From NCBI GenBank assembly GCA_016788185.1, contig JAEUTF010000054.1:1-47732 (forward strand): a stretch of 47,732 nt of DNA, written 5' to 3'. The translations under genes and the position numbers were made by a program. This stretch comes from Bacteroidia bacterium (GTDB taxonomy: Bacteria > Bacteroidota > Bacteroidia > AKYH767-A > OLB10). Shown here piece by piece: positions 1,903-47,732 of this stretch. The stretch's first letter is position 1, and each line of letters opens with the position of its first letter. The notes below the pieces were generated by a model. It had not been told where the DNA came from. It saw nothing but the letters and a program-made list of their open reading frames with translations, and did no database searches.

Positions 1903-3207
1903 TTATGCGGCAGCTGAAATGTATTCCTTCATTACAAGCTGTACGGTTTCCTGAAGATTGGTATTGTTGATGACCAGGTAATGCTGTTTTTTCGCCGAAC
2001 GACCCAGCTCCTCAAACAAGGCTTTGTATTCGCTGGTCAGCTGATTGATATCCGACTCCGACATTTCCTGCTTCCTCCGGTAAATCACTTCGGCAGGGGC
2101 AAATAAAAACACGTTTACCTGCGGCTTAAAGACGAAATGATAACACCAACGCAGAAATTTCCTTGGCAGCACGATGTTGGACCTTCGTGCATCAATGATG
2201 AAATCGAAATAATAACGGTCATACAAAACGGTATATCCGCGCAGGGTGTACCGGAAGTAGATGTAATACTGTCCCACCAGGTAATCCAGGTAGTAATAGA
2301 GGAAACGGAAAAAAGAAGATATTACATTGCGGTTGGAACCCTGCCGCGGCAGTCGCTCGCGGGTTTTCTGCTCGGCTTCCTTCCTGCCATGCAGGTATGT
2401 GCTCAGGATGGGAAGCAGGGAAGGACGGTGGCGCAAAACCACTGTTTTCTGCCGGTACTTCCGCTCCAGCATCCCCTTTACCTCGTCAATGATGGTGGAT
2501 TTTCCCGCACCATCCACTCCGCTGAAGGTAACGGTAAGGCCATGGTGACAAACCGAATCGCGGAGGACATCCCCCACGTAACGTACACGGTGAAAGATGC
2601 GACGAAATCCCCGGTTCACGGAAAGGCTGCTCACATGGGTCCGGATCTTTTTAGCAAACCTGGTTTTGTACTCGTACAATTCATCCAGCACATTGATGTT
2701 TACTTTGTAGCGGCCCGTGAGGTGAGTGAAAATTACGGCTCTCTCCTCGGCGCCGAACGCGCTGAAATAATCCCGGTACTTCTGCGGCACCGACGATTCG
2801 TTGAGAAGGTAAAACAACATGATGTACTCGAAATTGTGGTGGTGGGAAGCCAGCTTCAGCCCTTCCCGGCTCAGGATATGTCCGTCCAGCACTTCATCCG
2901 GATCGAGATACAGGATACCCTTGCGGTCGAAGCGGTGCAGCAGATCCAGCTCGAGGTAGGAGCCGTCACGGAAATAGAGACTGATGAAGGTGGCAAACGA
3001 CTTTTTGTTAAAATGCATTTTCTCAATGCCGGATCCCTCCCGAATAATCTCCAGGAATCGACCCTTCTCCTCGTGTCCGATGACCATATCGATGTCAGAG
3101 GACTCGGGCAGGGCGGCCATGCCGGGATGAATGAACTTCAGCAACGCATAGCGCAGGGAGCTGATCTCCCTGAAAAAATACGCTATAAACGATGCGCGCT
3201 GGTTCAT
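1903..3207 (-). CDS. Nucleotidyltransferase-like domain fused to thymidylate-kinase-like P-loop kinase
   Basis: 434 residues with two domains. Residues about 15-125 resemble a minimal nucleotidyltransferase fold: LPESSDIDMVI (33-43) supplies the paired aspartates, and YLELDLL (84-90) supplies the third acidic strand. From about residue 222 there is a P-loop kinase of the thymidylate kinase type. It has Walker A FSGVDGAGKST (228-238), a DRYYFDFIID segment matching the DR(Y/H) motif, and an arginine-rich lid (YRRKQEMSES). It is about twice the length of dTMP kinase (roughly 210 residues), so it is unlikely to be the housekeeping Tmk. Such thymidylate-kinase-like proteins occur in polysaccharide clusters. 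The gene lies two bases downstream of the phosphotransferase gene, so the two are probably co-translated. The substrate is unknown; a glycan or a lipid-linked intermediate is a guess. Confidence 0.78.
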   Translation of the reverse strand: MNQRASFIAYFFREISSLRYALLKFIHPGMAALPESSDIDMVIGHEEKGRFLEIIREGSGIEKMHFNKKSFATFISLYFRDGSYLELDLLHRFDRKGILYLDPDEVLDGHILSREGLKLASHHHNFEYIMLFYLLNESSVPQKYRDYFSAFGAEERAVIFTHLTGRYKVNINVLDELYEYKTRFAKKIRTHVSSLSVNRGFRRIFHRVRYVGDVLRDSVCHHGLTVTFSGVDGAGKSTIIDEVKGMLERKYRQKTVVLRHRPSLLPILSTYLHGRKEAEQKTRERLPRQGSNRNVISSFFRFLYYYLDYLVGQYYIYFRYTLRGYTVLYDRYYFDFIIDARRSNIVLPRKFLRWCYHFVFKPQVNVFLFAPAEVIYRRKQEMSESDINQLTSEYKALFEELGRSAKKQHYLVINNTNLQETVQLVMKEYISAAA

Positions 3208-3209
3208 CT

Positions 3210-4562
3210 TTATTTGATGCTTTTCTTCATCATGGACAGGCTATCTTCAATGGCTGCTGTCCAGGCGGTGATCATCCACTGACTCTGCATGAGCAATTCC
3301 TTTTCGCCGAGGTACTGCCGCACATAATGGCTCACGTTGAAGAGAAGGTAAAGCGCATGGTGCAGTTGCACCTTGATGCCGTATTTCTGTATCATGTGCA
3401 TAACCAGGGGCTGGCGGCTCCAGGAGTGGATGGCGTCCCTGACTTCAGGATAATTTTTCCGCTGCTGTAAAATGACGCTCTGGTAGCTGAAGTGAAAGAG
3501 GTCAAAGAGCATGGGGATGCCGTTTCTGGCCATCTCCCAGTCGTACACATATAGGCGTTGTTCGTCGCAATACATGTTCCAGGGTGTGAAGTCGCCGTGT
3601 GAAACGGATACCGGCACCGTTAGGCCCTGGGGCAATTCGAGGTAGAGTTGACGGAGCAGTTCCACGAGACGGAGGGTAGCCGTCTGGTCGATCGTGTTGA
3701 TGAAGACCAGTTCGCGGTTCAGGAAATCCATGTTCGAACAGAGCGTACTCCAGGCTTCTGTTTCGGAAAGCGCCTTGCGCTCGTGGCTGAGGGCGTATAA
3801 TTCGGCCAGCGCGGCGATATGAATGGCCGTGATGCGCTCGGCGGAAATACAGATCCTTGGCTTGACATCCGACAAACGGGCATGCCCGTTGACCCGCTTC
3901 GAAATGCTGGGCAGACTCAATGTACTGAAGTCGTAATTACTGAGCGTTTTTACCATGTTGTATTCGTTTTCAACCAGCTTTTCAGCCTCTTTCGTTAACG
4001 GAATTTTTATGAATGCGCTCTCCCGTTTTCCGGTCTGTACATGCAGCACGATCTTCCGGGTGGCGCCCCGCGTACCGGTGAAGAAGCTGCAGGATTCGGC
4101 ATCGTCCATTCCGTAACGCTCTTGTACTGTTTCAAACAGCTTTTGTTGCACCAGGAAACTACCTGAAAAGAGAAAACTCCCTTGTCCCAGTTTCCAGGCA
4201 AGCCGGGTCAGCGTTTTGTATAAACCCGATTTAAGCGAAGCGGCATTGTAGAGGGAGAGATGTCCGGCTTCACGGCTATGATTCGGGAAAAACCAACGGA
4301 TGCTGCCATCGGGATTATTGATAAAGGCCATTTCCATCCAGGGACCTTCGTCGCTGTTGGATAGGTACAATCTCATGCTGGAGGACTGCAAATCCGCCAC
4401 CAGCAGCGGAGCCGCTTCCGGATCACCCGTGGCACCTGAACATGGACCTTTCTGCTCTCCCATTAGTTTTTTGGAGGGATCCAACACGTAAAGGTCACTG
4501 CCGGGAGCAAACAAATCACGTAAAAGAAGCAGATCGGTAAGGTAAATTGCCTGGGTTTTCAT
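3210..4562 (-). CDS. APH/choline-kinase family phosphotransferase
   Basis: 450 residues. The C-terminal half carries the kinase signature of the aminoglycoside phosphotransferase/choline kinase superfamily: HGDFTPWN (322-329), with catalytic Asp324 and metal-binding Asn329, and DWE (341-343), equivalent to the DFG metal site. A glycine-rich strand FTGTRGATRK (161-170), AFIKIPL with Lys186 and ENEYNMVKTL with Glu200 form a plausible ATP-binding N-lobe. The first 150 residues match nothing I recognise. The start overlaps the end of the O-antigen ligase gene by 47 bp, and the gene ends two bases before the kinase fusion. Within a polysaccharide locus this suggests phosphorylation of a glycan or its precursor rather than antibiotic resistance. 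That is inference. Confidence 0.8.
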   Translation of the reverse strand: MKTQAIYLTDLLLLRDLFAPGSDLYVLDPSKKLMGEQKGPCSGATGDPEAAPLLVADLQSSSMRLYLSNSDEGPWMEMAFINNPDGSIRWFFPNHSREAGHLSLYNAASLKSGLYKTLTRLAWKLGQGSFLFSGSFLVQQKLFETVQERYGMDDAESCSFFTGTRGATRKIVLHVQTGKRESAFIKIPLTKEAEKLVENEYNMVKTLSNYDFSTLSLPSISKRVNGHARLSDVKPRICISAERITAIHIAALAELYALSHERKALSETEAWSTLCSNMDFLNRELVFINTIDQTATLRLVELLRQLYLELPQGLTVPVSVSHGDFTPWNMYCDEQRLYVYDWEMARNGIPMLFDLFHFSYQSVILQQRKNYPEVRDAIHSWSRQPLVMHMIQKYGIKVQLHHALYLLFNVSHYVRQYLGEKELLMQSQWMITAWTAAIEDSLSMMKKSIK

Positions 4563-5820
4563 GGCCGGTATGGCCCTTTATACGCCGACGCTCGCCGAGA
4601 GGTTCCGCGGCAAGCGAGAAAACGAGGAATAAATAGAAGAGGATACCGTAATTGGTTTCACCGAAAATCCCGAACTCGGTCATGGAATTGATCAGCAGCG
4701 GTATCATCAGCAGTCCGCTCATGAACCTGGAACTACGGTCGGCGACACGGCGCAGGGTCCAGAAAAACACAGCGAGTTGTACGAGTACAATCGAAAATCC
4801 TACCAGTCCGAGGCCGAGCAAGACCTGGAGGAAGGTATTGTGCGTCATGGCTCCGGCATAGGCATTGAGCGACTCGAACTTATCAGCATAATCGATGCGC
4901 ATGTAGCCGTATCCCAACCAGGGTTCACGGGGGAAATTGTAGGTGAGCAGATCGTGCCAGAAGGGAAGACGGCCGGTGAGGGTAATCAATTCCGACAGCT
5001 GATCCTGTTTTACGAAAAAAGACCATCCGGCAAAGGGAATCAGCGCCAGAGCAACGGCGAAGAAGAGTACCCGGTGAAGCCGTTTGCCATTGGCAAAAGC
5101 ATACATCAGCAATACCAGCATGAGGGCGATGAAAGAGGAGCGCGAACCGGTAAGCAGGAGCAGCTGCACCAGCATGCCCATCGCCAGGAGGATGCTGATC
5201 CTCCATTTCTTATCCTGCTGCACCCGGGGCAGAAGGCAGGTGATGCCGATCACGAAGAGCATACCCAGTTCATTGGGATTGATGATATAGCCGCCCAGGC
5301 GACTCACGGATCCGCCGTGGGTAAGGCGATAGAAATGATCGGGATCGAGGAGGAGTCCGGCCGCAAAGCAGAAGCCGGTCAGCACCACGGCCGGAGCAAT
5401 CAGCCGTTGCAGGCTGAAGGCGTCGCCGGGATGCTGCTGCCGCCACATCAGCAGGAGACGGATGTAGAGGAAGGCGAAGAGAAATCCTTCCGCATCCATC
5501 AGCCATTGCAGCAGGCTGGCGCTGAAAGAACTGCTCCATAACAGCGAGGCAGCCCCGAAGAGGAGATACAATCCGTACAGCCATATGGGCAGCGGATTGG
5601 CAAGGGTTGCTGATCCTGCAGCCACTTTTCTCTGCTGAAAAAAAACGCTGATAAACAGCAGGAACGTGAGGGCGATGCGAAGCCCGGCTTTCAGCGTCTG
5701 TACCAGCACGAGGTTGTCGGAGAGCATGAAATAGGAGGCTATGCGCAGCGTGAGTACCAGGATCAGGAAATTCCGGCCTGCCGCAGGTGCAGCGCTCCAC
5801 AAAGAAGGTTTATTCTTCAT
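4516..5820 (-). CDS. O-antigen ligase / Wzy-type polymerase family membrane protein
   Basis: 434 residues with about ten to twelve hydrophobic membrane segments. It carries the features of the Wzy_C/O-antigen ligase superfamily: RLGGYIINPNELG (174-186), TGSRSSF (224-230), TGRLPFW (282-288), WLGYGYM (301-307) and HNTFLQ (327-332), the periplasmic-loop histidine motif. Proteins of this family either polymerise undecaprenyl-linked repeat units or ligate finished glycan to an acceptor. With a flippase, a chain-length protein and an OPX exporter upstream, a Wzy-type polymerase role is the simpler reading. The start codon overlaps the stop of the upstream glycosyltransferase by four bases (ATGA), indicating translational coupling. 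The last 47 bp overlap the phosphotransferase gene. Confidence 0.85.
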   Translation of the reverse strand: MKNKPSLWSAAPAAGRNFLILVLTLRIASYFMLSDNLVLVQTLKAGLRIALTFLLFISVFFQQRKVAAGSATLANPLPIWLYGLYLLFGAASLLWSSSFSASLLQWLMDAEGFLFAFLYIRLLLMWRQQHPGDAFSLQRLIAPAVVLTGFCFAAGLLLDPDHFYRLTHGGSVSRLGGYIINPNELGMLFVIGITCLLPRVQQDKKWRISILLAMGMLVQLLLLTGSRSSFIALMLVLLMYAFANGKRLHRVLFFAVALALIPFAGWSFFVKQDQLSELITLTGRLPFWHDLLTYNFPREPWLGYGYMRIDYADKFESLNAYAGAMTHNTFLQVLLGLGLVGFSIVLVQLAVFFWTLRRVADRSSRFMSGLLMIPLLINSMTEFGIFGETNYGILFYLFLVFSLAAEPLGERRRIKGHTGHENPGNLPYRSASFT

Positions 5821-6950
5821 CGCAGCACCGCGTTTTTAACCTGATACACATCGAGTAGCCTGCGGGCCACAGCCAGCCAGTTGAACTCCCGGCTCACCAT
5901 TTCCCTGGCCCGTTCTCCCATTTCGGTATGCAGGCCCTGGCGGTAATACTTTTCAAAATCAAAGAGTGCTTTTTCTATGCTGGCGGCATTGCTCTGACGC
6001 AGGTGCAGGCCGCAGCGGTATTGCTCCACCTGCTGCCCTACATTGGTGGCTGTGCTCACCATGAGTGTCCTTCCCAAGGCACCGGCTTCCAACACGGCGG
6101 TGGGTGACCCTTCTGAGCGGGAGGGATGGCAAAAGAGGTCCATGTTGGCGATCCGGTTCAGCTTGTCTTTGCCGTAGCGGGCACCCATAAACTGCACCCG
6201 TTCGCTGATGCGGAGCTGCCTGCACAGGGCTTCCAGTTTCGGCCGGTCAGGACCATCGCCAATGAGCCAGAGCTCGCCGTCTCCTTCTTTCCGGCAATAA
6301 GCCGCGAAGCCTTCCAGCAGGGTATCGAGTCCTTTGTAATAGATATCGAGGCGGCCGCAGAATCCGAAAACCGGATTGCGGCGCCGTTGCATGTTGCTGA
6401 AATCAAAATGAAGTTCACTGAAGTCCTGGCCATTCGGTATCACCACTTTATTCTGCAGCCGCACCACGCTGGCGATGTGATCAAATTCGCTTTGCCCCAG
6501 GAACTGCACCTTGAGGGCATCGCGGAGAATAGCCTTTTCAAACTGACTGATGTAGACTTTCTTCACCCACTTGTTCTTTTCGAGGGCGATGCGGTTGAAG
6601 GCGCCGTGGGGAGTATAAACATAGGCCAGTTTCATGTCTTTCAGCAACCTGGTCACTTTGTAAAAATCGGTGATGAAAGCGCCGTGAATGTGAAAAACAG
6701 TGTCCTTCTCTTGCTGTGATATGGCATACATGAGTTTCGGATCCAGGTCGCGGTAAATGGGCTGGGCCCGGAAGAGGTAAGTGGGGAAAGGACGCGGGTA
6801 CACGGCCTGGTCGGGCGTCCGGGTGATGCCCCAGATTTCGACGGGGATCTGCAACTCGTAAAAACTCATAGCGAGATGATGCGCCACCTTGTTCACGCCG
6901 TTCATGCGCTCGGGGTTCGCCTTTCCCAACACCAGGTGGATGACCTTCAT
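5817..6950 (-). CDS. Glycosyltransferase family 4
   Basis: 377 residues with a GT-B fold. The N-terminal acceptor domain starts MKVIHLVLGKANPERMNGV, with the usual N-K-V-A-H-H-L helix. The C-terminal donor domain has GFCGRLDIYYKGLD (G-R-D...KG phosphate-binding loop) and FCHPSRSEGSPTAVLEA, which contains the EX7E nucleotide-sugar motif. This is a retaining sugar transferase at the cytoplasmic face of the inner membrane, acting on a lipid-linked repeat unit. It is the first gene after the 1.7-kb repeat tract, so it must either be read through from the flippase gene or have its own promoter in that tract. I do not see a convincing -7 box in the 100 bp upstream. The donor sugar is not predictable. 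Confidence 0.9.
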   Translation of the reverse strand: MKVIHLVLGKANPERMNGVNKVAHHLAMSFYELQIPVEIWGITRTPDQAVYPRPFPTYLFRAQPIYRDLDPKLMYAISQQEKDTVFHIHGAFITDFYKVTRLLKDMKLAYVYTPHGAFNRIALEKNKWVKKVYISQFEKAILRDALKVQFLGQSEFDHIASVVRLQNKVVIPNGQDFSELHFDFSNMQRRRNPVFGFCGRLDIYYKGLDTLLEGFAAYCRKEGDGELWLIGDGPDRPKLEALCRQLRISERVQFMGARYGKDKLNRIANMDLFCHPSRSEGSPTAVLEAGALGRTLMVSTATNVGQQVEQYRCGLHLRQSNAASIEKALFDFEKYYRQGLHTEMGERAREMVSREFNWLAVARRLLDVYQVKNAVLR

Positions 6951-7080
6951 AACAACTTCTCATACGTGTAAGGCGGATGTAAGGTTTCGGAAGAAAATGT
7001 GAAATTTTGATGTCGCCGGGAGGCGGATGAGGGGCATGGAAGGAGGGCACAATGTTCCTGTTGTTCAGGAAGATCCATGT

Positions 7081-7440
7081 CCGGTTTCACATAATTCTGT
7101 GCTTTCCCCCCAATGATCATCCCTGCACCGAATTTCACCCTTCTTTACGGAAAAGGTGCGGGAAGGGAGAACATTTTCAAGCCGAAGCTTAAAAAAATAC
7201 GCCAGAGCAAATCATAATGTATCATAAGCCATCATGAAAATCAGCGACCCGTTTCACATTATATTCTGCTCAGATCGTTATAGTCTTTGCTGCACCGAAT
7301 TACACCTTCCTTTACCGAGAAGGGAAGGGAAAACATTTTCAAGTTGAAGCTTTATAACTACCCCAAAACAAATCATATTGAATCATAAGCCATCATGAAA
7401 ATCAGCGGCCAGTTTCACCTAATACATTACGAGATGCCTA
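7081..7440. repeat. Degenerate 161-167 bp tandem direct repeat (2.2 copies)
   Basis: Copy 1 is 7081-7247, copy 2 is 7248-7408, and a partial third copy starts at 7409. Each starts with CCNGTTTCAC and ends with ATCATGAAAATCAGCG. Shared internal blocks include CTGCACCGAATT, GGGAGAACATTTTCAAG or its variant, and AATCATAAGCCATCATGAA. Between these blocks the copies have diverged by substitutions and small indels, so the duplication is not recent. It carries no convincing coding potential. It differs from the hairpin repeat to its right and has no GGGGAC hairpin. Confidence 0.85.
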
Positions 7441-7599
7441 TGATAGGCCGGGATTCTTTCAAGACTTTTCATGGCAATTCTAAAAATAAAATGCAGATAT
7501 ACCTCCTACTACCCCGAAAACATAAGTATTCATCCGAAAGAAAAGAATAGTTCACCAGGGAACAACAATATCCTCGCGCAAATGGATTAGTATAAAAAA

Positions 7600-8490
7600 A
7601 TAAAAGAATTAAGCTACACAAGAAAAGGGGGATGCTATCCCCGCCCCTGCACAAATTTATGAGTTGGCAAATTATTAGTCGTATATTAAATACTTGTATC
7701 CGTTTACATACGGCTTTATCTTCGGGGGACTCCGTCCCCGCCCCGAAGTAAATTTAGAGAACAGAAAACGGATAGTCGTATATTAAATAATTGTATCCGT
7801 TTAAAATGGAACGACACTAAACCAGAAACTTTTCTTAAACCGTCTTATAAAAAAGGGGGACTCCGTCCCCGCCACGAAGTAAATTTAGGGAACAGAAAAC
7901 GGGTAGTCGTATATTAAATGATTGTATCCGTTTAAACGGTTTAATTTCCGGGGGACTCCGTCCCCGCCCTGGAGTAAAATTAGGGAACAGAAAATGGGTA
8001 GTCGTATATTAAATGATTGTATCCGTTTAAAATGGAACAACACTAAACCAGGAGATTCTCTTAAACCGTTTCATAAAAAAGGGGGACGCTATCCCCACCC
8101 CGGAGTAAAATTACAGAGTAAAAAATTGATAGTCGTGGAATAAATATTTGTATCCGGTTAAAACGGCATTGCACAGGTATAGAATAATTTCTTAAGCCGG
8201 CCTTAAAAAATGGGGGACTCCGTCCCCGCCCCGGAGTAAATTTAGGGAACAGAAAATGGATAGTCGTATAATAAATACTTGTACCCGTTTATAAACGATT
8301 TATTTCCGGGGGACTCCGTCCCCGCCCCGGAGTAAATTTAGGGAACAGAAAATGGATAGTCGCTTAATAATTACTTATACCCGTTTATAAACGGTTTAAT
8401 TTCCGGGGAGCTCCGTCCCCGCCCCGGAGTAACATTACAAAGTAAAAATGGGTAGTCGTACAATAAATGCTTGTCTCCGTTTAAAAAGAA
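7600..8490. repeat. Eight-copy modular array of GGGGAC...GTCCCC hairpin repeats
   Basis: Hairpin cores (GGGGGACTCCGTCCCC type) start at 7627, 7724, 7855, 7950, 8081, 8212, 8308 and 8405. The spacings are 97, 131, 95, 131, 131, 96 and 97 bp, so only two unit lengths exist. Each unit has the hairpin, a tail close to GCCCCGGAGTAAATTTAGGG, a conserved block ATAGTCGTATATTAAAT, then TTGTATCCGTTTA. The linker comes next. Short units close it with a palindrome (CCGTTTAAACGG at 7928-7939, CCGTTTATAAACGG at 8381-8394). Long units carry about 35 extra bases at the centre of that palindrome and end in an A-rich run. The conserved, non-unique intervals rule out a CRISPR array. No reading frame is maintained. 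Function is unknown. Confidence 0.9.
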
Positions 8491-8654
8491 CGATCAACTG
8501 CTACACAGAACTAAACGCGCTCTCCATCAACATATTTTTCAACTCCAAAATAATTACGCCTTACCGATGCATGGACTCCGAACGATGAATTCAATAATTG
8601 ACCCACCACCTTCCGGTCAGCTATCTATTCAAACACCCGGACCAAAAGCAGCGT

Positions 8655-9917
8655 TCACAAACGCTTCAGCTCCCGGCGTAAACTGTACAGGTAAATGCCA
8701 AGCGTGATGAGCTGGGTGAGCATCAGGCCCATGATCACACCGTTCAAGCCGAACATCGTAATGACCGGATACGCCGTGAGGACACTGAAAATGCTGCTGG
8801 CAATAAAGGAGATGAAGATCAGTCGGGTGTTTTGCAGGGTACGGATGGCATAACGCAGGGGATAGCCGAGGAAGATGATGACATAGAGGGCGCAGAAGCC
8901 GATGAGGAGGTGCTGGTAGGCCACGTACTCGCTTCCGTAAAAGAGCAGGATGAGTTGCTTGCTGAAGATAGCGAGCGCGGCGAGCAGGGTGAGCGTGAGC
9001 AGGCCCATCTGCAGCGTGAATTTCCAGAGGTACCGGAACATCTGATCGTTGCCGCCGCTACGCTGCTGGTGCGCCGCCCGTACCGGAATGATGTTTTCCA
9101 TGGCCAGGAACAGCACATGGGTGATGCCGACAATGTTCTGGGCCATGCGGGTGGCTCCCACCGCGCGTGGTCCCATGATGGCCCCGGCGGCGATGATGAA
9201 GAGGTTGCCGCTGAACCACTGGAGCAGGGCCGTGGCCGTGAGCCATTTGCTGAAATCCCAGTGTTCAAGGATGGCGGCCCTGATGAGCTTCGGACTGAAG
9301 TGCAGCTGATCCATCGACCACAAACCGATGAGCGAAGCATACAGAAAGAAAACCGCGGTGAGCAGGAGAACGAACTGAGCATCCATGTCGCGGACGAAGT
9401 GAATGGCGAATGCGCTGATCAGGACACCGCCGTAAGCCACGGCATCAATGAGCAGGGATTTGAATGGTTTTCCGATGACGAAGAAATACCGGCGGAAGAA
9501 ATCCTGGAGGAGAAAGGAAAATACGGCGAGTGGAAAAGCGAGTACGATACTTTGCACTTTCCATTGCTTGAGCAGGTAACTCATCACAATCACGGCCAGG
9601 AAAGCGAGAAAGCCCATGATTGCGGCAAAGAATAGCTGTTTGAAAACCAGCGACTGTAGATAGTACTTTTGTTCCCCGGCCTCTTTCTTTCCGGTCAGCG
9701 TCTGCATCGGCGAAATGATAAAAGGCTGGTTGATGCTGCTCGCGATGAGCACCCCGAGCCAGGCAATACTGTAGATACCGAAGCCATCGAGACCCAGGTA
9801 ACGTGCCAGCACCACACTGGACAGAAAATTAAGGCCGCTGACCAACGCCTGATCGGCGTAGATGATGGCGGTCCCGCTTTTAAAAAGTTGTTTTGGCTGG
9901 CTTAAACTGAGTTGCAT
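8655..9917 (-). CDS. Polysaccharide flippase, Wzx-like (MOP/MATE superfamily)
   Basis: 420 residues and about twelve predicted membrane helices, with the typical opening of lipopolysaccharide/polysaccharide flippases (IYADQALVSGLNFLSSVVLA, then RYLGLDGFGIYSIAW). The motif R-x-LG-x-x-x-F-G in the first loop is shared by Wzx/RfbX proteins. It should move undecaprenyl-pyrophosphate-linked repeat units from the cytoplasmic to the periplasmic face of the inner membrane. It lies nine bases downstream of the Wzc-like gene, so the two are co-transcribed with the exporter. The repeat tract follows its stop codon and separates it from the glycosyltransferase genes. Confidence 0.87.
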   Translation of the reverse strand: MQLSLSQPKQLFKSGTAIIYADQALVSGLNFLSSVVLARYLGLDGFGIYSIAWLGVLIASSINQPFIISPMQTLTGKKEAGEQKYYLQSLVFKQLFFAAIMGFLAFLAVIVMSYLLKQWKVQSIVLAFPLAVFSFLLQDFFRRYFFVIGKPFKSLLIDAVAYGGVLISAFAIHFVRDMDAQFVLLLTAVFFLYASLIGLWSMDQLHFSPKLIRAAILEHWDFSKWLTATALLQWFSGNLFIIAAGAIMGPRAVGATRMAQNIVGITHVLFLAMENIIPVRAAHQQRSGGNDQMFRYLWKFTLQMGLLTLTLLAALAIFSKQLILLFYGSEYVAYQHLLIGFCALYVIIFLGYPLRYAIRTLQNTRLIFISFIASSIFSVLTAYPVITMFGLNGVIMGLMLTQLITLGIYLYSLRRELKRL

Positions 9918-9926
9918 AGGTCATGC

Positions 9927-12230
9927 TCACCACATGAAGAGGTTGGTTAGGCGTGGGGTGTTTTTCTTGTTGCTTAGTTTTTTGTTCCTGGCCGGAGCGA
10001 TGTAGCCGGTGTGATTGCGGCGCTCTTTCATGCCGTTGAGTACATAATACACTTCCTGCAGCCTGTATTCTTCCTTCACCATCTCCGCATTGGCTACCAG
10101 CTCATCGCGCCCGCTTTCGGCCCTCACCACGTACAGGTTCAGATCGCTCCATTTCATGTACGGAATGGCTTCAATGTGCTCCCCTACCTCCGGGGTGTCA
10201 ATGATCACGGCGTCGTACTGGCCGCGCAGCTCTTCAATGATTTCTCGGGTGCGGTGGGTGGCCACCAGGTGTCCCACGGGCTGTTCCGCCTCACCGGCGG
10301 TGATGACATCCAGGTTGGGGATGGAGGTGAGTTGAATGGCATCCTGCAACGAACACTGGTGTGTATACACCTCTTTGATGCCGTTGCCGGTACGGGCGTC
10401 GAACCATTCGCCCAAACGCGGACTGTAGGTATTCAGATCGAGCAGGATGACTTTCTTGTCCTGGGCGGCCAGGGTCCTGGCCAGCTGCGCGGATACAAAA
10501 GATTTTCCTTCGCCTTTGCGTGTACTCGTTACCGTTATCACCATCGACCGTTGATCGGGATTGTTCATGAAAATACGGGTGCTGAGGGCGGTAAAGGCCT
10601 TGTAGGCGGTTTCGTTTTTGCGGAACTGCTGCACCTGTCCGATGACCGGTATGCCGGAGGTTTCCGTATTCAGGTCTTCCGGCGTACTCACGGAAGGCTT
10701 GCTGAAATGACGGAAGTAAGCCAGCATCACGCCACTGATGAGTCCAAGCAAAAGGGCAACGCCCCAGATCACGTCGCGGCGCGGCGCCACCGGCTCGGTA
10801 GGCACCGTGGCCGATTCCAGCACCCTGTTGAAGGACACGTTGACCTGACGGGTGATGATGGCTTCCGTTCTTTTCTCAATCAGGAAATTGTATACTTTCT
10901 CAAAGAGGAAATAATTGCGGTTCAGTTCCTGCAGGGTACTTTCCTTTTCGGGTAATCCTTTGAAGGAAGCCTTCTGCTCGTCGATGGCCAGGTACAGTTC
11001 ATCCTGCTTGAACAGCAGCTTCCGGCGGGTATTGTTGATACTCTCTACCAGATAGGCCTTTTGTTGTGCGATCTCGGCATCCACATTTTTCACGCGGTCG
11101 TTCTCGGCGGTGAACTTGCGGAGCAGGTCGTCGCGTTCACGCATTTTGGCGTTCAGCCTGCTGACGCTTTCTGAAAAGAGCTGGTCGATGACCGTGCCGT
11201 ACTCCGGACCTGAAAACTTAATTTCCTTGTTCCGGCGCAGGTAATCGCTCATGTTTTCGAGCACGCTGAGCTGCATGTTGAGGTCCACGCGCTGGATTTC
11301 CAGTTCACCCAGGGTTTTATATGTGGCCTCGGTTTCCTGGGGGATGTTTACGATTTCATTTTTGATACGGTAAGACTTGATGGCATCACGGGCCGCTTCC
11401 AGCTCACGGCCCACGATGGCAATCTGCTGGTTGATGAAATCCACGGTGCTGCCCGCCAGGGTTTTCTTGTCTTCTATCCCCTGGTTGATATAGGCTTCCG
11501 CAATAGCATTAACCAGCAGGGAGGCCTTTTCAGGTACGGGATGGGTGTAATACAACTTGACGATGTTTACATCCTTGTCCACGGCCTTCACCAGGTACTG
11601 CGTGTTCATCAGTTTGGCGGTAAGGGCTTCACGTGAGTACAAGGTAAATGTCCAGGGCTCGCCCATGCGGCCGGCGTGGTACTTCATGATTTCCTCGTCC
11701 CTGCGGATGGTGATGCATACGCCGCGGTCGCAGAGCGGTTTACCGAACTCCCCTTCCTTCTGCACCAGGGTGCCGGCGGCATCGTAGGTAAGGCTGTATT
11801 TGTTACCCGAGGTATGCCGGAAGTCGCAGGTCAGGGTGCGGAACTTGCTGTCCGTTATCGTGAAATCCACCTTGACCGGCGCTTCATGATACACCTCTTC
11901 TTTCTTCAGCTCTCCGGGGCGATAGTACTCCACGTAAAAGTCCAGCTGGTCGAGCGCCTTCTCAAAAAGTGAGCGGGATTTAAGCACCTCCACTTCGGTC
12001 TGGATCTTGGCATTGGCCTTGAACACGTCGAAGTCGCGGTACAGGTTGCTGCCGGCCATCCCGTCCTGGGCATCCTCGATGCGGAGGGTGGCGGTGGCCT
12101 GGTAATGCGGGGTGGCCATATAAAGGTAGCGGGTAGCCGCAATGCCCGCCAGCAGCACACAGATGACAATGATATACCATCGCTTGCGGATGGGATACAA
12201 CATGGATTCCAGGGACCCGGGTGTTCGCAT
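9927..12230 (-). CDS. Wzc/GumC-like polysaccharide co-polymerase with atypical BY-kinase domain
   Basis: 767 residues. Membrane helices lie at about 17-37 and 487-506, flanking a periplasmic Wzz-type domain with a long coiled coil (about 265-430). A cytoplasmic P-loop domain follows: Walker A TSTRKGEGKS (568-577) and Walker B AVIIDTP (674-680). It normally controls chain length and export together with Wza. Two features differ from active bacterial tyrosine kinases. Walker A' reads VILLDLNTYSPR (594-605) instead of a DxDxR pattern, so the second aspartate is Asn. The C-terminal tail has a single tyrosine (Tyr743) rather than a tyrosine cluster. ATP binding is plausible; tyrosine autophosphorylation is doubtful. 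The gene starts two bases after the OPX gene ends. Confidence 0.9.
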   Translation of the reverse strand: MRTPGSLESMLYPIRKRWYIIVICVLLAGIAATRYLYMATPHYQATATLRIEDAQDGMAGSNLYRDFDVFKANAKIQTEVEVLKSRSLFEKALDQLDFYVEYYRPGELKKEEVYHEAPVKVDFTITDSKFRTLTCDFRHTSGNKYSLTYDAAGTLVQKEGEFGKPLCDRGVCITIRRDEEIMKYHAGRMGEPWTFTLYSREALTAKLMNTQYLVKAVDKDVNIVKLYYTHPVPEKASLLVNAIAEAYINQGIEDKKTLAGSTVDFINQQIAIVGRELEAARDAIKSYRIKNEIVNIPQETEATYKTLGELEIQRVDLNMQLSVLENMSDYLRRNKEIKFSGPEYGTVIDQLFSESVSRLNAKMRERDDLLRKFTAENDRVKNVDAEIAQQKAYLVESINNTRRKLLFKQDELYLAIDEQKASFKGLPEKESTLQELNRNYFLFEKVYNFLIEKRTEAIITRQVNVSFNRVLESATVPTEPVAPRRDVIWGVALLLGLISGVMLAYFRHFSKPSVSTPEDLNTETSGIPVIGQVQQFRKNETAYKAFTALSTRIFMNNPDQRSMVITVTSTRKGEGKSFVSAQLARTLAAQDKKVILLDLNTYSPRLGEWFDARTGNGIKEVYTHQCSLQDAIQLTSIPNLDVITAGEAEQPVGHLVATHRTREIIEELRGQYDAVIIDTPEVGEHIEAIPYMKWSDLNLYVVRAESGRDELVANAEMVKEEYRLQEVYYVLNGMKERRNHTGYIAPARNKKLSNKKNTPRLTNLFMW

Positions 12231-12232
12231 AA

Positions 12233-12973
12233 TCAGTTGTTTACGGATACATTGTATACCAAGGCCAGCGCGGTAAGCAGGCTGGCGAGAGGAATCAGTT
12301 TTGAAGCCACGCGGTCGAAGGACTTGCTGCGTCCCGGTCCTACATAAATCACATCGCGGGCGATCACCATCGTTTCGTTGGCCGAGGCATCGGTGAGGTC
12401 CACTTTGATGATTTCAGTACCGCGAATAATCTTTATCTCTGTGGTTTTGGCATAGTCGGTGAGGCCGCTGGCCCTTCCGATCATGTCTACGAGGCGGGCC
12501 TGGTCGGTATGGAAAACATAATTGCCCGGACGCTGCACCTCGCCCAATACGGTGACCTGGCTGTTCAGCAAGCGAAGGTTGAGGATGGGCTTCTGGATGA
12601 ACTGACTGTACACACCTACCAGTTTTTCTTCGGCTTTCGCGGGTGTGAGACCTTCCAGCTTCACCTTACCCACCTGCGGCAGGTTTACTTCTCCGCGGTC
12701 GTCGATCATCAGCCATTTTCCGGATTCCTCCGGCGTGCTGTATACGGTGTGGATGGAACCCACACTCAGATCGTCGTGCCCCCAGATGCTGACCGCAATC
12801 TTGTCGCCCGGCGCCAGCGTCTTTTCGCCCAGTGCGGACGTATCTGCAGCGTCATGGCCGGAACGCGTCTGATACAAGGCGTATTTGTTACAGGAACTGA
12901 CCAGGAGCAGCAGGAAAATTCCTGCGAACCAGGGGTAGGCCGTTTTCAGGTAAAAATGACTGTTTACTTTCAT
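12233..12973 (-). CDS. Wza-like outer-membrane polysaccharide export lipoprotein (OPX family)
   Basis: 246 residues from the chosen ATG at 12973. That start puts a lipoprotein signal directly at the N-terminus, with lipobox LVSSC and Cys28 as the lipidated residue. An in-frame ATG at 13021 would add 16 residues before it and is less likely. A polysaccharide export domain follows (LAPGDKIAVSIWGHDDLS onward), then one SLBB-like segment (VTVLGEVQRPGNYVF). The C-terminus ends in a hydrophobic helix (IPLASLLTALALVYNV), typical of short OPX proteins in Bacteroidota, which are smaller than enterobacterial Wza (about 380 residues). It forms the exit conduit for the polysaccharide and works with the adjacent Wzc-like protein. 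It is the promoter-proximal gene of the locus. Confidence 0.9.
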   Translation of the reverse strand: MKVNSHFYLKTAYPWFAGIFLLLLVSSCNKYALYQTRSGHDAADTSALGEKTLAPGDKIAVSIWGHDDLSVGSIHTVYSTPEESGKWLMIDDRGEVNLPQVGKVKLEGLTPAKAEEKLVGVYSQFIQKPILNLRLLNSQVTVLGEVQRPGNYVFHTDQARLVDMIGRASGLTDYAKTTEIKIIRGTEIIKVDLTDASANETMVIARDVIYVGPGRSKSFDRVASKLIPLASLLTALALVYNVSVNN

Positions 12974-13385
12974 GGTGGTTTTAGAATTGATTCCGCTCAA
13001 AGGCTCCTGCACGTAATGCAATTAAACTGCAAAGGGTCGCAGAGGGTTACAAAAATGAGTCGCAATACTACACCGGGTAAAAACTTAATCCTGCACCGGG
13101 CTTCCTGTATATCATTGAATAACAGAGCGATTGTTTGAAAATACCGTTCCGGACAGGCACTATAAAATACGAAACTTTTGGCCGAAAGTTAGGCCCGAAC
13201 CCATGCGAAAGCAGTTCAACTCTTACATTTCCGGTCGGTTTGGATGGGGAAGGCCGGCCGGAGGAATGGAACACAGTCGAAATCAGATGGCCGGGACGGG
13301 ATCTTTTTTAACAGGCATAGGCGGAAAAGCCCAAGCTTTGGTATCATTCGCTAGGGCGAAAAGCCTTAATTTCGTTGCCCGAACC
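12974..13385. promoter_or_regulatory. Divergent intergenic region between the polysaccharide locus and dut
   Basis: 412 bp without a gene. A -7-like box TAATTTCG (13367-13374) lies 11 bases before the dut ATG. An inverted repeat AACTTT-TGGCCG-AAAGTT (13173-13190) sits in the middle and could be an operator or a short hairpin. For the polysaccharide direction I find only weak -7 candidates, so its promoter is not placed. An ATG-initiated extension of dut reaching back to 13131 is not credible, because the extra residues lie outside the conserved dUTPase fold. Confidence 0.4.
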
Positions 13386-25979: not shown

Positions 25980-26326
25980 GTCTGTTTTTCCCCGGTTTCC
26001 CTTCAAACGGTCCCTGCCGGCGGACGATCTGACCAAAAATAGGTAAGCAAGCGATGTTATCACCGATGAAAAACCAGTTCTTGTATTGAACCCTGCCCCT
26101 GCTTTACACCACGGCTGTCCGGTTTAAGAAATACGATCAAAAACGACCACCCTGCGTTTTTAACCGTTCACCCTGAAAAAAATCGCCCTCACGGGTCCGG
26201 GGTATGTGTGGAAAAGCATATATTTACAATGCCGCTCCTGCGGCCACCCTCCAAAACCACCACACCGCCTCCGGAACCCACCGGAGCTGCCCCATTTCCA
26301 TTACGAACACCGAACATCTAACGTCC
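25980..26326 (+). other. 347-bp leader region of the giant adhesin gene
   Basis: No gene is visible. The adhesin frame stays open back to an ATG at 26204, but the extra 41 residues precede a perfect signal peptide and are unlikely to be translated. A TATATTTA sequence around 26217-26224 is a weak -7 candidate. No strong hairpin terminator follows gpsA. Confidence 0.4.
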
Positions 26327-29300
26327 ATGATGCTGAGAAAAGTACTTTTCAGGATACTTACGCTCCTGCTTTTAACGGCGGGACCGCTGCAGGCTCAGGT
26401 CTATACCATGGGCAACGGCACCGTCAACACCTGCTCCGGCTTTTTCTATGACAGCGGTGGCAGCGGCGGTGATTACTTCAACAACGAGAATTATACCCTG
26501 TCCATTTGTGCCTCCACACCGGGTACCTGCGTACGCCTCAATTTCACCAGTTTCGACCTGGAGCCCACTTTTGATGAAATGATGATTTACAACGGGCCCA
26601 GCACAGCCGCTCCGCTGATCGGAACCTTTACCGGCAATGTGAGTCCGGGCCTGATCACGGGAAGTTCCGGTTGCCTTACCATCGTATTTACTTCCGATGC
26701 CATTGTCCGGTATACCGGCTGGTCGGCGGAAATCTCCTGTGTGAACTGCAGCAATGGCTCCTGCCTCAGCAATTGCAACGGCGGTGCGGCGCCCGCCAAC
26801 GATGCCTGTACCGGGGCACAAAATCTGGGAAGCATTCCGGCACCCGCTCCCTGTCCGGGCGGGATCGGCGGACTCAGCACCACCAACACCAGCAACCTCT
26901 GCGCCACCGCGGAATTTCCCTATTCCTCACTCTTAGGCTGCCAGCCATCCGGCAACATGGCCACTCCGGCGGCCGACGTGTGGTACCGCTTCAACATTAC
27001 CGGACCCAGCCTGAATGTAAACATCTCAGGCGGCCTCGCCAATCCGAATGTGGGGCTCTATGAAGGCAGTTCCTGTGCCAGCCTCATTCCGAGAGGATGC
27101 GCCATTGGCAACAACGGCAACCTGAATGCCACCTTTTCCGGACTGGCGGCCGGCACCTATTACCTCCAGGTGAGCGGAGGGTCGGTGACCGACCAGTGTG
27201 ATTTCACGCTCACCCTGCAGAACAATTACGATTGCGCCGGCTGCGTGATTCAAAGTAATTTCACGGCTGTTCCGCCTCCTGTAAACGGATTTTATCCTGC
27301 GGGGCAAACCGTTACCTTCTGCTACACCATTACGGATTACAACCAGACCTCGGCCAACTGGCTGCACGGCATCGTTCCGGATTTCGGACCGGGCTGGGAC
27401 ATGAGCACCTTTGTGGCAGGATCGACCACCAACTGTAGCGGGCAGGGAACCTGGAACTGGTACAACAGCAACGTAACCAGTTCGGCCACCGGCAATGTCA
27501 GCGGGCCCGGATTTTACTATGAGTCGCCGCTCGGCAATCCCTCCGGACTTTCGGATGGCAACCCTGGCAATAATTTCGGCGACAACAACGGTACCAATAC
27601 CTGCGACTGGACCTTTTGCTGGACCATCCAGACGCTGCCCGCGAGTGCCTGCATCCAGGGTGCCAGCCTCAACATATCGGTAGATACCTATGGCGACGGA
27701 GAGAGTGGATCATGGGGTTCCGTAGCCTGTACGCAGGATCCGGTGACCAGTTTTTACGCGGCGCTGTCCTGCTGCGAAGCCCCGGTCATCAATGTCACCA
27801 ACCCACAGTGTCCGGGCCAGAATACCGGCAGCGCCACGGCGCAGGGAGCCGGCAACGGTCCCTGGGATTACGTCTGGCAAAACGCGGTCGGGGGCACCAT
27901 GCTTTCACAGAGTAACATTGCGGGGTCCAGCACCATCAACAACCTGCCTCCCGGCAATTACACCATCCGCGTTACCGACAACACCGGCTGTACGGCCAAT
28001 GCGGCCTTCACCGTGACGGCAGCACCAGCCTTTACCGCCAGCATCAACACCACCAACCTGACCTGCAACGGCAGCAATAACGGCAGCGCCAGTGTGATTG
28101 TGAACGGAGGAAGCCCCGGCTACAGCTACAGCTGGCTGCCCAGTGGCAGCGGCAGCAATCCCACCTCGCTGCCCGCGGGGAACTATACCGTTACCGTCAC
28201 CGATGCGAACGGCTGCACCACCACGGCTTCCGGCAGCATCACACAACCCAACCAGCTGCTGGTCAGCATCGGCACCCAGAACAACATCACCTGCAACGGC
28301 GGACAGGATGGCAGCATCACCGTATCGGCCAGCGGGGGCACCCCCGGCTATGCTTACACGTGGTCGAACGGGACGGCCGGCACCTCGGTATCCGGCCTCA
28401 GCGCCGGCGCCTACACGGTCACGGTAACCGATAGCCGCGGCTGCACCGGATTTATGACTGTGGTTTTATCACAGCCTGCCGCACTGGCCCTGAATCTCTC
28501 TTCCACCACGGCCAGTTGTGGCAACGCCAACGGAACGGCCACCGTGATTGCGGCGGGCGGTGTTCCGGCTTATACCTATGCCTGGTCGCCTTCCGGCGGC
28601 AGCGGCAACATCGCATCCGGACTTACGGCAGGCGGATACAATGTAACGGTGACCGATAGCCGCGGTTGCACCGCCATCGGCAATGTGGTGGTCAGCAACA
28701 GCAGCGGCCCCACCGCCGGCATCCTCTCCAGTAACAATGTAAGCTGCTTTGGCGGCACTGACGGCAGCGCCACGGTGAGTGTAACCGGCAGCAGCGGCGC
28801 CGTGACCTACAGCTGGGCCCCCTCCGGAGGGAATGCCGCCACCGCCTCCGGACTGGCAGCGGGTAATTACACCGTTACGGTGAATGACGCTTCCGGCTGC
28901 AGCAGTTCCGCCTCCGTGGTGATCACATCACCACCTCAGCTAACGGCCACCATCACCGCCAGTATTCCCGTCTCCTGCAGCAATGAAAATGACGGATCCC
29001 TTACCGTACAGGCCAACGGCGGTACGCCGGGATACAGTTACCAGTGGAGCGGTGGTTCCGTTAATCCGACCGACAACCTGCTCAGCGCCGGCAGCTACAC
29101 GGTAACCATCACCGATGCATCCGGATGTACCGCTACGGCCACCGGAACCGTCAACGCGCCGCCGGCCCTGCAATTAAATGTTACCGCGAACAATCCTGCC
29201 TCCTGCGCAGGAGGTAATGACGGAAGCGCAACGGTGGCTGCCGCCGGAGGTACACCGGCCTACAGCTACCAATGGTCGAACGGAAATACCTCCGCCGGTT

Positions 29301-32300
29301 TGTCCGCCCTGGCGGCCGGCACCTATACCGCCACGGTGACCGATGCGAACGGTTGCACTTCGACCGCTCAGGTGAACATCGGACAAGCCGGAGCGCTGGT
29401 GCTGAACCTCTCCTCCACCAGTACTTCTTGCGGAAACAATAACGGCAGCGCCACCGTACTGGTCAACGGCGGTACGCCGGCTTATTCTTACACCTGGAAC
29501 CCCACCGGCGGCACGGCAAATACAGCTTCCGGACTTGGTTCCGGTAACTATACCGTGATCGTAACGGATGCAAACGGTTGCACGACGGCGGGAAACATCA
29601 ATGTTCCCAGCGCCAACGGTCCCGGCATCGTACTGAACAGCAGTACCGACATCAGTTGCCCGGGCGGAAGCGACGGAAGCATTGATGTGAGCGTGAACGG
29701 TGGCGTGACGCCTTACAACTACACCTGGTCGAACGGCGCGGCCGGTAATATCCTCAACAACCTGGCGGCCGGCACCTACATCCTGACCATTACCGACGAC
29801 AACAATTGCACCGCCTCTTTGTCGGTAAGCCTTACAGCGCCGCAGGCCTTTGCCTTTGTTACCACTCCTGTTACCGCGCACTGCGGGCAGGCCGACGGCA
29901 GCCTGGGCATGAACGTGAGCGGCGGCACGGCTCCCTATACCTACCTGTGGTCGAACGGCGCCGGCGGCAGCCTGCTGACGAACATCGGCGCCGGCACCTA
30001 TACCCTCACCGTGAGCGACGCCAACGGCTGTAGCGCTCAGGCGCAGGGAACGGTACCGGACGAACCCGCTCCCGTGCTCAGCATCAACAACATTCTGGAT
30101 GCCACCTGCGCCGGCGCTTCGGATGGCCGTATCCGCGTGAACGTAGCCGGCGGCATTCCCCCGTATACCTATGCCTGGTCGAACGGAACCATCGGACAAC
30201 TCAATGCCAATATTCCGGCCGGCACCTATACCGTCACGGTGATGGATGATTTCGGATGTACATCGACGTTACAAGCTTCGGTGAATGAGCCACCGGCCCT
30301 CGTGCTGGTCACCGGCAGCACTTCCGCCACCTGCGGCGCCTCCAACGGCAGCGCCAATGTGCTGGCCGCGGGTGGAACGGCTCCCTACCAGTACAACTGG
30401 GTACCGGCGGGCGGCAGCGGCGCCAGCGCCCTGAACCTCGGAGCGGGCGCCTACACCGTGGTGGTGACCGATGACAACGGATGCACGGAACAGGCCAGCG
30501 TGACGGTACCCAGCTCCAACGGCCCTTCCGCCGCCGTGCTGCTCTCCACCGACGTAAGCTGTTCCGGCGGAAACGACGGCAGCCTCACCATAGCCGTTAA
30601 CGGCGGTGTGGCTCCGTACAATTACCAGTGGTCATCGGGTGGCAGCGGCGTTTCCGGCAACAACCTCACGGCAGGCACCTACACCATTACCGTGAGTGAT
30701 GCCAACAACTGCAGCGCCACCGTGGCCGGTGTCATCAACGAACCTCCGGCCATCAACATGGTCCTTGCTTCGTTCACGGCACATTGCGGTCAGGCGGACG
30801 GCAGCGCCGATGCGCAGGTGAACGGCGGCGTACCCCCCTATTCCTACACCTGGTCCACCGGGACCTCCGTCAACAATATTCTTCCTTCCGTAGCGGCAGG
30901 AACCTATACCGTTACCGTCACCGATGCCAATGGCTGTACCGGACAAAGCTCCGTCCTCGTCAGCGATAAACCGGGTCCGGCCGTCAATGTAGCCGGCATC
31001 AACAATGCCACCTGCAACGGCGGAAGCAACGGAAGCATTGCCGTGGGTCTGAGCGGCGGCAGCGCGCCTTTCGCCTATACCTGGTCGAACGGCACATCCG
31101 GTGCGGTGAATTCAAACCTCGCTGCCGGCACCTATACCGTCACTGTCAGCGATGCTTTCGGATGTACGGGAACGGTATCCGGCACCGTGAACGACCCCCC
31201 TGCCATACAACTGAACTTTAACAATACCACCTCCACCTGCGGATTTTCGAATGGCTCTGCCAGCGTGACGCCGGCCGGAGGAAGCGCCCCCTACACCTAC
31301 CTCTGGAACAACGGGGCCGTGGTATCCGGTCCATCGGCGCTGGCGGCGGGGATTTATACCGTGACCGTAACCGATGCGCAGGGCTGTTCCGTAAGCGGTA
31401 GCACGATTGTGAACAGCGCCGGCGGACCGACCCTGGCGGCCGGCCCGCTGACCGATGTGAGTTGTGCCGGCGGCGCGGACGGTACTGCCACCGTACTCGT
31501 CATTGCCGGGAATGGCCCCTACACCTTCGACTGGCTGCCCTATGGCGGCATCACGGCATCCGCTAACGGCTTGTCGGCAGGAAATTACAAAGTAACCGTG
31601 ACCGATGTGAACGGTTGCAGCACCGCCCTGAATTTTGATATCCTGGAACCCACGCCGCTGGTGGTGAACAACCTTTGTACCCCGGTGAGTTGCAATGCCG
31701 GCGCCGACGGTACCGCCACCATCGACGCGCAGGGCGGCACCGCACCCTATACCTATGACTGGAATCCGGGAGGCCTCGCGCCCGCCAACAGGATCAATCT
31801 GTCCGCAGGAACGTATACGGTTACCGTTAGTGACAGCAAGGGCTGTACCATGCAGACACAGGCCATCGTCAGTGAACCCACGGCCATCACAGGCGTACTC
31901 AGCGTGGCGGATGCCACCTGCAACGGCGGCAGCGACGGCAGCGTATCCATTGTGGCGGCAGGAGGCCTGACGCCCTACACCTTCCTCTGGAGCGACGGAT
32001 CCACCGGAACACAGATCAGCAACCTCGCAGCGGGTGCCTACAGCATCACTATCTATGATAACAACGGATGCAGCCATGCGGAAAACGCCCTCGTCGCTGA
32101 ACCGGCCGCCATCAGCCTGAACATCACCGTGAACGATGCCAGTTGTGGCAATGCCAACGGCAATGCCCAGGTAAGCGGAAGCGGCGGCACAGGGAATCTC
32201 AGCTACCAATGGTCCAACGGATCCGGCAGCAATTCTATTTCCGCACTCACGGCTGGCAATTATACCGTTATTGCCACTGATGACAACGGATGTACCGTGA

Positions 32301-38805: not shown

Positions 38806-38900
38806 GATAACCTGTGCGTGAAAGAAAAGACAACAGGCCTGCGGGTGTAGCCGCTCCGGCATGTTCTCTGGTCTTTTCGCCGAAGACATTGAACGATATT

Positions 38901-39070
38901 CACCGGGCAGGTCTTCTGACTCACGATTTCGGCGTTGCCTTCCCGCCGGCCTTTGGCCGGTAGTGGTCTGACGCTATTCGGTAATTCCGATATCGTTTAC
39001 AGCAGCGGGAACTGTTGCCGGATTGCACGGCATTCCCTTTTCATCCTCCCGTGGAAGGAACCTGGTGAGT
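38901..39070 (-). promoter_or_regulatory. Cobalamin (B12) riboswitch
   Basis: On the minus strand the leader contains the conserved core of the B12 element: AAGGGAATGCCGTGCAATCC, then GGCAACAGTTCCCGCTGCTG and TAA. Near its 3' end comes GAGTCAGAAGACCTGCC (about 38922-38906), the B12-box-like segment. A GC-rich stem-loop (CCGGCCAAAGGCCGG, about 38948-38962) lies between them. The 3' end is about 95 bases before the receptor start, leaving room for an expression platform. I do not see a clear Rho-independent terminator there, so control by blocking translation initiation is more likely. Confidence 0.93.
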
Positions 39071-39073
39071 CGG

Positions 39074-39081
39074 CAAAGATA
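39074..39081 (-). promoter_or_regulatory. Putative -7 box driving the riboswitch-receptor transcript
   Basis: Minus strand TATCTTTG, an exact TAnnTTTG match, immediately upstream of the riboswitch 5' end (GCCGACTCACCAGGTTCC). The position places the transcription start right at the first riboswitch helix. Confidence 0.65.
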
Positions 39082-47303: not shown

Positions 47304-47732
47304 GCCCACGGGCCGGTATAGACCCATTTACTCAGGTGTAAAAATGGGGCTCCGGCCGGCTTTTCAGGGGACGAAGGTGGTGAATTTGGCCGATTTTCGG
47401 GTAAAACAGGGGACCTGCGGGGTCAAATGCATGGCAGACACTCCACACAGACGCACCCGGCGTGAACCCTGCTTAATTCCTTCCCGGCCCGGAAACAGCC
47501 GATCCGGCGGAAGATACAGGTCAGGTTTTGTGACGAACAGCCAGGTGTACTTGATCTTCAGAAAACACAGCGCACCATGGCGGTGACCGGACTTCAGCAT
47601 CTCGCCCCGCCTGATGCAATCTGCAACATACAAATCGTTCAGGTGCGTAAGGAGATCGGCAAAACAGGCTGGGTATTGATTGCAGTCCCTTGTTGAACAG
47701 GCCGAAAAACCGGGGACTACGTCCCCGCCCCG
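47304..47732. other. Gene-free right end of the window
   Basis: 429 bp in which I see no credible gene, RNA gene or strong terminator. Open frames on both strands are short and have no family resemblance. The only recognisable element is the single hairpin repeat at the very end (47710-47732). Confidence 0.6.
47710..47732 (+). repeat. Isolated copy of the GGGGAC...GTCCCC hairpin repeat
   Basis: CCGGGGACTACGTCCCCGCC followed by CCG. It has the same 6-bp stem as the array in 7600-8490 with loop TAC instead of TCC, and the same GCCCCG tail. It is cut by the window edge, so it may be the first unit of another array. Confidence 0.8.

Follow-up and report, generated by a model that had tools for sequence, protein, structure and literature searches.

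The window (the whole 47,732-nt stretch of DNA analysed here) carries an exopolysaccharide gene cluster at 1903-13021, with genes for an O-antigen ligase, a glycosyltransferase, a flippase, a Wzz/tyrosine kinase and an export protein, and inside this cluster lies an array of eight repeat units at 7627-8486 that sits on the minus strand and reads leftwards. Adjoining the array is a second tandem repeat (7060-7440; three units of about 161-167 bp) whose core of about 50 nt also occurs elsewhere in the genome, in short tandems on contigs C147 (period 136) and C252 and once on C195. Elsewhere, the window holds a cobalamin riboswitch (38889-39080, minus strand, 94 bits) and, at 26204-36523 on the plus strand, one ORF of 3439 codons. 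The features of the array and of the right end of the window are as follows.

7627..8486, minus strand: whole array of eight predicted promoter-hairpin units (from core positions, spacings, model matches and the T-run rule)
8440..8483, minus strand: unit 1 box, a putative promoter upstream element (model match 33 bits)
8405..8420, minus strand: unit 1 start-site hairpin without T-run, one stem disturbed
8332..8387, minus strand: unit 2 box, spacer and −7 element (51 bits)
8308..8323, minus strand: unit 2 hairpin without T-run
8236..8291, minus strand: unit 3 box, spacer and −7 element (63 bits)
8204..8227, minus strand: unit 3 hairpin with T-run (terminator-like), followed by long spacing
8105..8160, minus strand: unit 4 box, spacer and −7 element (47 bits)
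8073..8096, minus strand: unit 4 hairpin with T-run (terminator-like), followed by long spacing
7974..8029, minus strand: unit 5 box, spacer and −7 element (60 bits)
7950..7965, minus strand: unit 5 hairpin without T-run
7879..7934, minus strand: unit 6 box, spacer and −7 element (60 bits)
7847..7870, minus strand: unit 6 hairpin with T-run (terminator-like), followed by long spacing
7748..7803, minus strand: unit 7 box, spacer and −7 element (61 bits)
7724..7739, minus strand: unit 7 hairpin without T-run
7652..7706, minus strand: unit 8 box, spacer and −7 element (51 bits)
7619..7642, minus strand: unit 8 hairpin with T-rich tail, at the array end
47592..47732, minus strand: exact overlap of 141 nt with the beginning of contig C195

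An earlier, sequence-only reading of this DNA had described eight hairpin repeats of two unit lengths, and this array is real: the hairpin cores start at 7627, 7724, 7855, 7950, 8081, 8212, 8308 and 8405, reproducing exactly the spacings of 97, 131, 95, 131, 131, 96 and 97 bp given there, and the region is without a gene-sized ORF, bearing out that it encodes no protein and is not a coding repeat. That reading had set the array on the opposite strand. Its second palindrome exists in exact form (CCGTTTAAACGG) in a single unit (about 7929-7940) and elsewhere as variants, and the roughly 35 extra bases of the long units were correctly located at it, a place that on the minus strand falls directly after the T-run hairpin. 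The conserved block occurs 8 times at no more than 9 mismatches in 30, all on a single strand, with no occurrence in 20 whole-window shuffles, and a sequence model of this box plus the −7 element picked out these 8 positions (E 1e-18 to 3e-9), with no other match in the 47.7 kb. An assembly artefact was rejected, as one contig spans the array and the unit is also present in independent genomes of three genera.

Read on the minus strand, each unit runs from a 30-nt box (consensus AAACGGATACAAATGTTTATTATACGACTA) through 16-17 nt to a −7 element and, after a further 3-4 nt, into a G-rich hairpin (for example GGGGCGGGGACGGAGTCCCCC). The gap between box and −7 element is 16 nt in 46 of 60 sites and 17 nt in 12, and box, 16 or 17 nt and TAnnTTT appear together in 58 of the 60. 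The −7 element of the units, TAnnTTT(A/G), resembles TAnnTTTG, which together with TTTG at −33 characterizes Bacteroidota sigma-AB promoters (PMC7366714), and this sigma-AB type places the hairpin at the expected RNA start. As in sigma-AB promoters, a −7 element is found in every unit, and also in the gene promoters described below, but the units lack TTTG at −33 and have the 30-nt box in its place, which suggests that the array promoters would be activator-dependent. A plain sigma-70 promoter scan was uninformative on the array.

Conservation among the units of this genome follows this anatomy, with mean pairwise identity of 0.73 in the box, 0.80 in the −7 element and 0.74 in the hairpin, and lower values in the spacer (0.52), before the box (0.43) and after the hairpin (0.39/0.32). 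Stem pairs are kept at 94%, with A-U replaced by C-G and C-G by U-A, a level matched by 0 of 500 shuffles, and wobble pairs (22 versus 9) favour the minus strand as RNA. Because single predicted RNAs mostly do not exceed composition-matched shuffles in stability, it is this covariation, together with recurrence, that supports the structure. We also considered a stem within the box (AAACGGATA/TATCCGTTT), but sister species do not preserve it; the box is therefore no hairpin.

Evaluating the genome (a 3.2-Mb draft in 282 contigs), we found 63 model matches, mostly in arrays on C108, C195, C90, C74, C163, C160, C249, C213 and C6, with a few weaker single sites besides; in all there are some 60 units, distributed over several arrays. 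Matches to the hairpin pattern number 44, all on array contigs, versus 2 for a control pattern. C213 and C6 adjoin, and C74 and C90 have array sequence in common; some arrays are one locus split by assembly, so the true unit count is somewhat below 63. Since the right end of the window is the first 141 nt of C195, and this overlap ends in a hairpin (at 47712) of an array continuing past the window, a second array directly adjoins the window.

Throughout the arrays of this genome the two unit lengths obey a simple rule: T-run hairpins (about half of all hairpins) are followed by long spacing in 21 of 21 cases, those without a T-run by short spacing in 21 of 25 (Fisher p 1.9e-9 for the association). 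In other arrays, several sequences with no relation to each other make up the additional bases of long units. Acting as intrinsic terminators, the T-run hairpins would cut the row into small transcription blocks, in the window units 1-3, 4, 5-6 and 7-8, each ending in one of four terminator-like sites on the minus strand. The array points at a glycosyltransferase gene (minus strand, start 6950), and local control of this gene is not favoured given the distance of about 680 bp and the terminator-like hairpin at the array end.

Beyond its own genome, the model matched in G016 (the metagenome-assembled genome Bacteroidia bacterium Go_SlAct_bin_93), G017 and G018, in seven genomes from a second genus and, at a weak level, in a single genome from a third, all of them drafts. 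An exact-pattern scan of genome contigs returned the G016 assembly only, and 198 sampled genomes from the phylum, screened under strict filters, gave one weak match outside the own genome. Across species the box, the spacing and the −7 element persist while hairpins differ (GGGTTTAAACCC, GGGGCTGCTGTCCCC, GGGGCGGAGGAGTGGTGGCCCCC, GGGAGGGATGCATGGCATCCC). Beside one dehydrogenase-like gene, an orthologous unit occupies the same place in four species: two of them have GGGGCTGCTGTCCCC as the hairpin and a third has TCCCGAGATTTTCTCGGGA, and the fourth carries the two kinds one after the other. With the hairpin swapped there and the unit retained, it is the presence of a hairpin that is kept, not its sequence.

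Known repeat classes fitted poorly. The sequence-only reading had set aside CRISPR and integron attC arrays, and we agree: the inter-hairpin "spacers" are the conserved box and the two lengths are tied to T-runs, and the attC core boxes RYYYAAC and GTTRRRY are absent from both strands of 7600-8490. Its suggestion of REP-like sites is not supported. REP sequences and BIMEs associated with RAYT transposases (PMC3733652, PMC2817692) are likewise clustered short intergenic palindromes, but the array is head-to-tail only, lacks the GTAG and CGTC tags beside all eight hairpins and has no linked RAYT in the genome, and the conserved part of its unit is the promoter box rather than a palindrome. Its hairpins are confined to box arrays, and the only Y1 transposase (Y1_Tnp) of the genome is flanked by different palindromes. 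In G017, which carries units, no Y1 transposase turned up. The Y1 transposase gene itself (L031, 12300-13400) has its own palindromes, of CCCCGGAGGGGC and CCCGTGCTCCGCACGGGG types, and is likely a RAYT locus of another family. A plasmid or phage origin was also rejected, there being no match in the plasmid or phage collection.

Box sites without hairpins lie just before genes. In G016 these are ComEA, SSB, DUF2851, 23S-IVP, GxxExxY and one ORF of an unknown protein, and in G018 ComEA, DUF3127 and the start of a tyrosine recombinase. An independent gene look-up placed the box at the comEA promoter of the own genome (G000) and of G018, G005, G006 and G009, and 6 of 7 genomes have a model match in the comEC region, those of G000 and G016 being partial and facing a divergent rhomboid gene. 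The DUF2851 box was found by model in G016 and G018 and by eye in G003 and G005. The R1 model was partly trained on G016 gene promoters, so matches there are circular; the comEA sites of G000, G018, G005, G006 and G009 and the comEC sites lie outside its training set. Among the main competence genes, the comEA and comEC regions carry the box in most genomes and ssb in one, while it is at none of 9 dprA loci. Between comEC and the divergent rhomboid gene, two species carry a shorter, near-palindromic form of the motif, TAAACGGATACAAACGTTTA (L190, about 1970-2045; L189, about 1128-1234).

Array units have the same box and box-to-−7 spacing as the comEA and comEC promoters. The blocks between hairpins are conserved, as had been observed; what that reading missed is that, on the other strand, they appear to be the upstream part of a promoter common to competence genes. 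Full units also stand at these genes: two hairpin units precede the comEA promoter of G005, between pyrF and comEA, while in G006 and G009 that gap holds the gene promoter only, and three units in G009 and two in G006 precede a comEC promoter that stands alone in G005. At comEA and comEC in these sister genomes the last box is the gene's own promoter. From these hairpin units beside promoter-only relatives, units appear to arise at, or to be drawn to, com promoters. Judged on what can be read directly in the DNA (box, spacing, −7 element, compensatory pairing, T-run rule, boxes at competence genes, units before comEA and comEC), the array is very probably a noncoding row of natural-competence-type promoters.

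A row of this kind could also have grown for its own sake, as a selfish repeat family whose unit captured a competence promoter, spreading by duplication, transformation or a single-stranded-DNA transposase with any regulatory effect incidental. Clustered related units, copy numbers that are patchy among sister species, the hairpins, and tandem-duplication growth that includes spacer sequence in G009 all accord with such a family, as does one G016 array adjoining an IS200-like gene; BOX repeats of the pneumococcus have been judged parasitic (PMC3049150). Yet only in G016 does an array adjoin such a gene, most arrays have no linked transposase, G017 has units with no Y1 transposase match, positions are common to several species, the box and −7 element are more conserved than the rest of the unit, and we saw no evidence of empty sites or target duplications. 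We consider this origin unlikely.

The same hairpins might instead be the product, the units then being small-RNA genes through which competence would yield tiny hairpin RNAs in many copies, some 25-40 nt in size or longer by read-through, acting in trans, for example by binding protein or messenger RNA. The unit has the makings of a complete transcription unit (promoter, hairpin, often a T-run), and the compensatory stem changes, the wobble-pair bias towards the minus strand as RNA and the terminator-like sites on that strand agree with this. Against it, the genome's hairpins differ in sequence and loop (GGA, AGC, GAA and others), hairpins are unrelated between species even at one orthologous site, sequence 3' of the hairpin is hardly conserved and an Rfam search for known RNA families was negative. 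Such a role seems improbable to us. Far less probable still is an array acting as DNA hairpins (a terminator or insulator cluster, or sites of single-stranded-DNA recombination or binding) with the promoter-like part incidental: every unit has a GC-rich stem and the window has its four terminator-like sites, but the box is conserved across species where hairpin sequences are not, many hairpin-less boxes sit before genes, and attC core boxes are missing. The earlier interpretation as a repeated small RNA or a protein-binding array was partly supported, each option fitting part of the findings.

The consensus of 18 gene promoters, TAAACGAnTATAAATATTTATTAAACGAnTA, contains a direct repeat of AACGAnTA with a sharp offset maximum at 21 bp, so the putative activator site of each unit would consist of two half-sites about 21 bp apart, 5' of the sigma-AB type −7 element. 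LytTR regulators (ComE, AgrA) use two direct repeats two helical turns apart, and other regulator families also use direct repeats. Like LytTR operators, the AACGAnTA half-sites repeat at two helical turns just upstream of a promoter, but their orientation and sequence differ and no LytTR protein is linked to the box. We found no candidate activator for it.

Two further systems resemble the array in part. BOX elements of Streptococcus pneumoniae (PMC3049150), a naturally competent species, are modular intergenic repeats with strong secondary structure whose inner modules vary in number, and some of these elements are transcribed; here, however, the unit is a promoter of competence-regulon type with a −7 element, whole units stand in tandem, and the sequence is unrelated and belongs to another phylum. 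Decoy clusters that titrate a regulator (a general concept; PMC7505660, for example, treats decoy sites and autoregulation) likewise offer many extra sites for one regulator, whereas this array is natural and noncoding, each site is a full predicted promoter closed by a hairpin, and titration is putative.

Given competence-type promoters, it is plausible, if somewhat short of an even call, that the arrays serve as a sink, taking up the competence activator. Near-consensus sites number in the dozens and the genes a mere handful, so the arrays would bind the activator (and polymerase) and set the threshold at which comEA, comEC and the other genes are switched on; the hairpin at the start site would stop each site from making long RNA. 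What favours a sink is that the binding box stays the same between species and the hairpin sequence can vary freely; the swap at the orthologous site with its box unchanged agrees with a function of the box combined with a hairpin of any sequence. Two features speak against a sink, the conserved −7 element, superfluous in a pure sink, and the lack of a T-run in about half of the hairpins. The absence of the box at dprA, the partial comEC-region matches of G000 and G016 and the failure to find an activator also weigh against the overall explanation, and partly redundant array contigs make the site counts approximate. We infer promoter activity, activator binding to the box and a net titration effect from sequence patterns. 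The best explanation overall, for which the case is about evenly balanced, is that these are orphan competence-type promoters with start-site hairpins that act as a regulated sink.

Literature searches for a competence motif in Bacteroidota returned nothing relevant, and no published competence operator for the phylum was found in them; for one Bacteroidota family the box supplies a promoter motif of comEA, comEC and ssb that is open to testing. The findings suggest noncoding DNA wired into the control of natural transformation. More tentatively, a lineage of Bacteroidia may control natural transformation through chromosomal arrays of orphan competence promoters bearing start-site hairpins, noncoding activator sponges grown by com-promoter duplication whose copy number would tune the threshold. 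The arrays are a candidate natural example in which the copy number of regulatory sites may tune a regulon, and with the motif one can predict competence genes and look for the activator.
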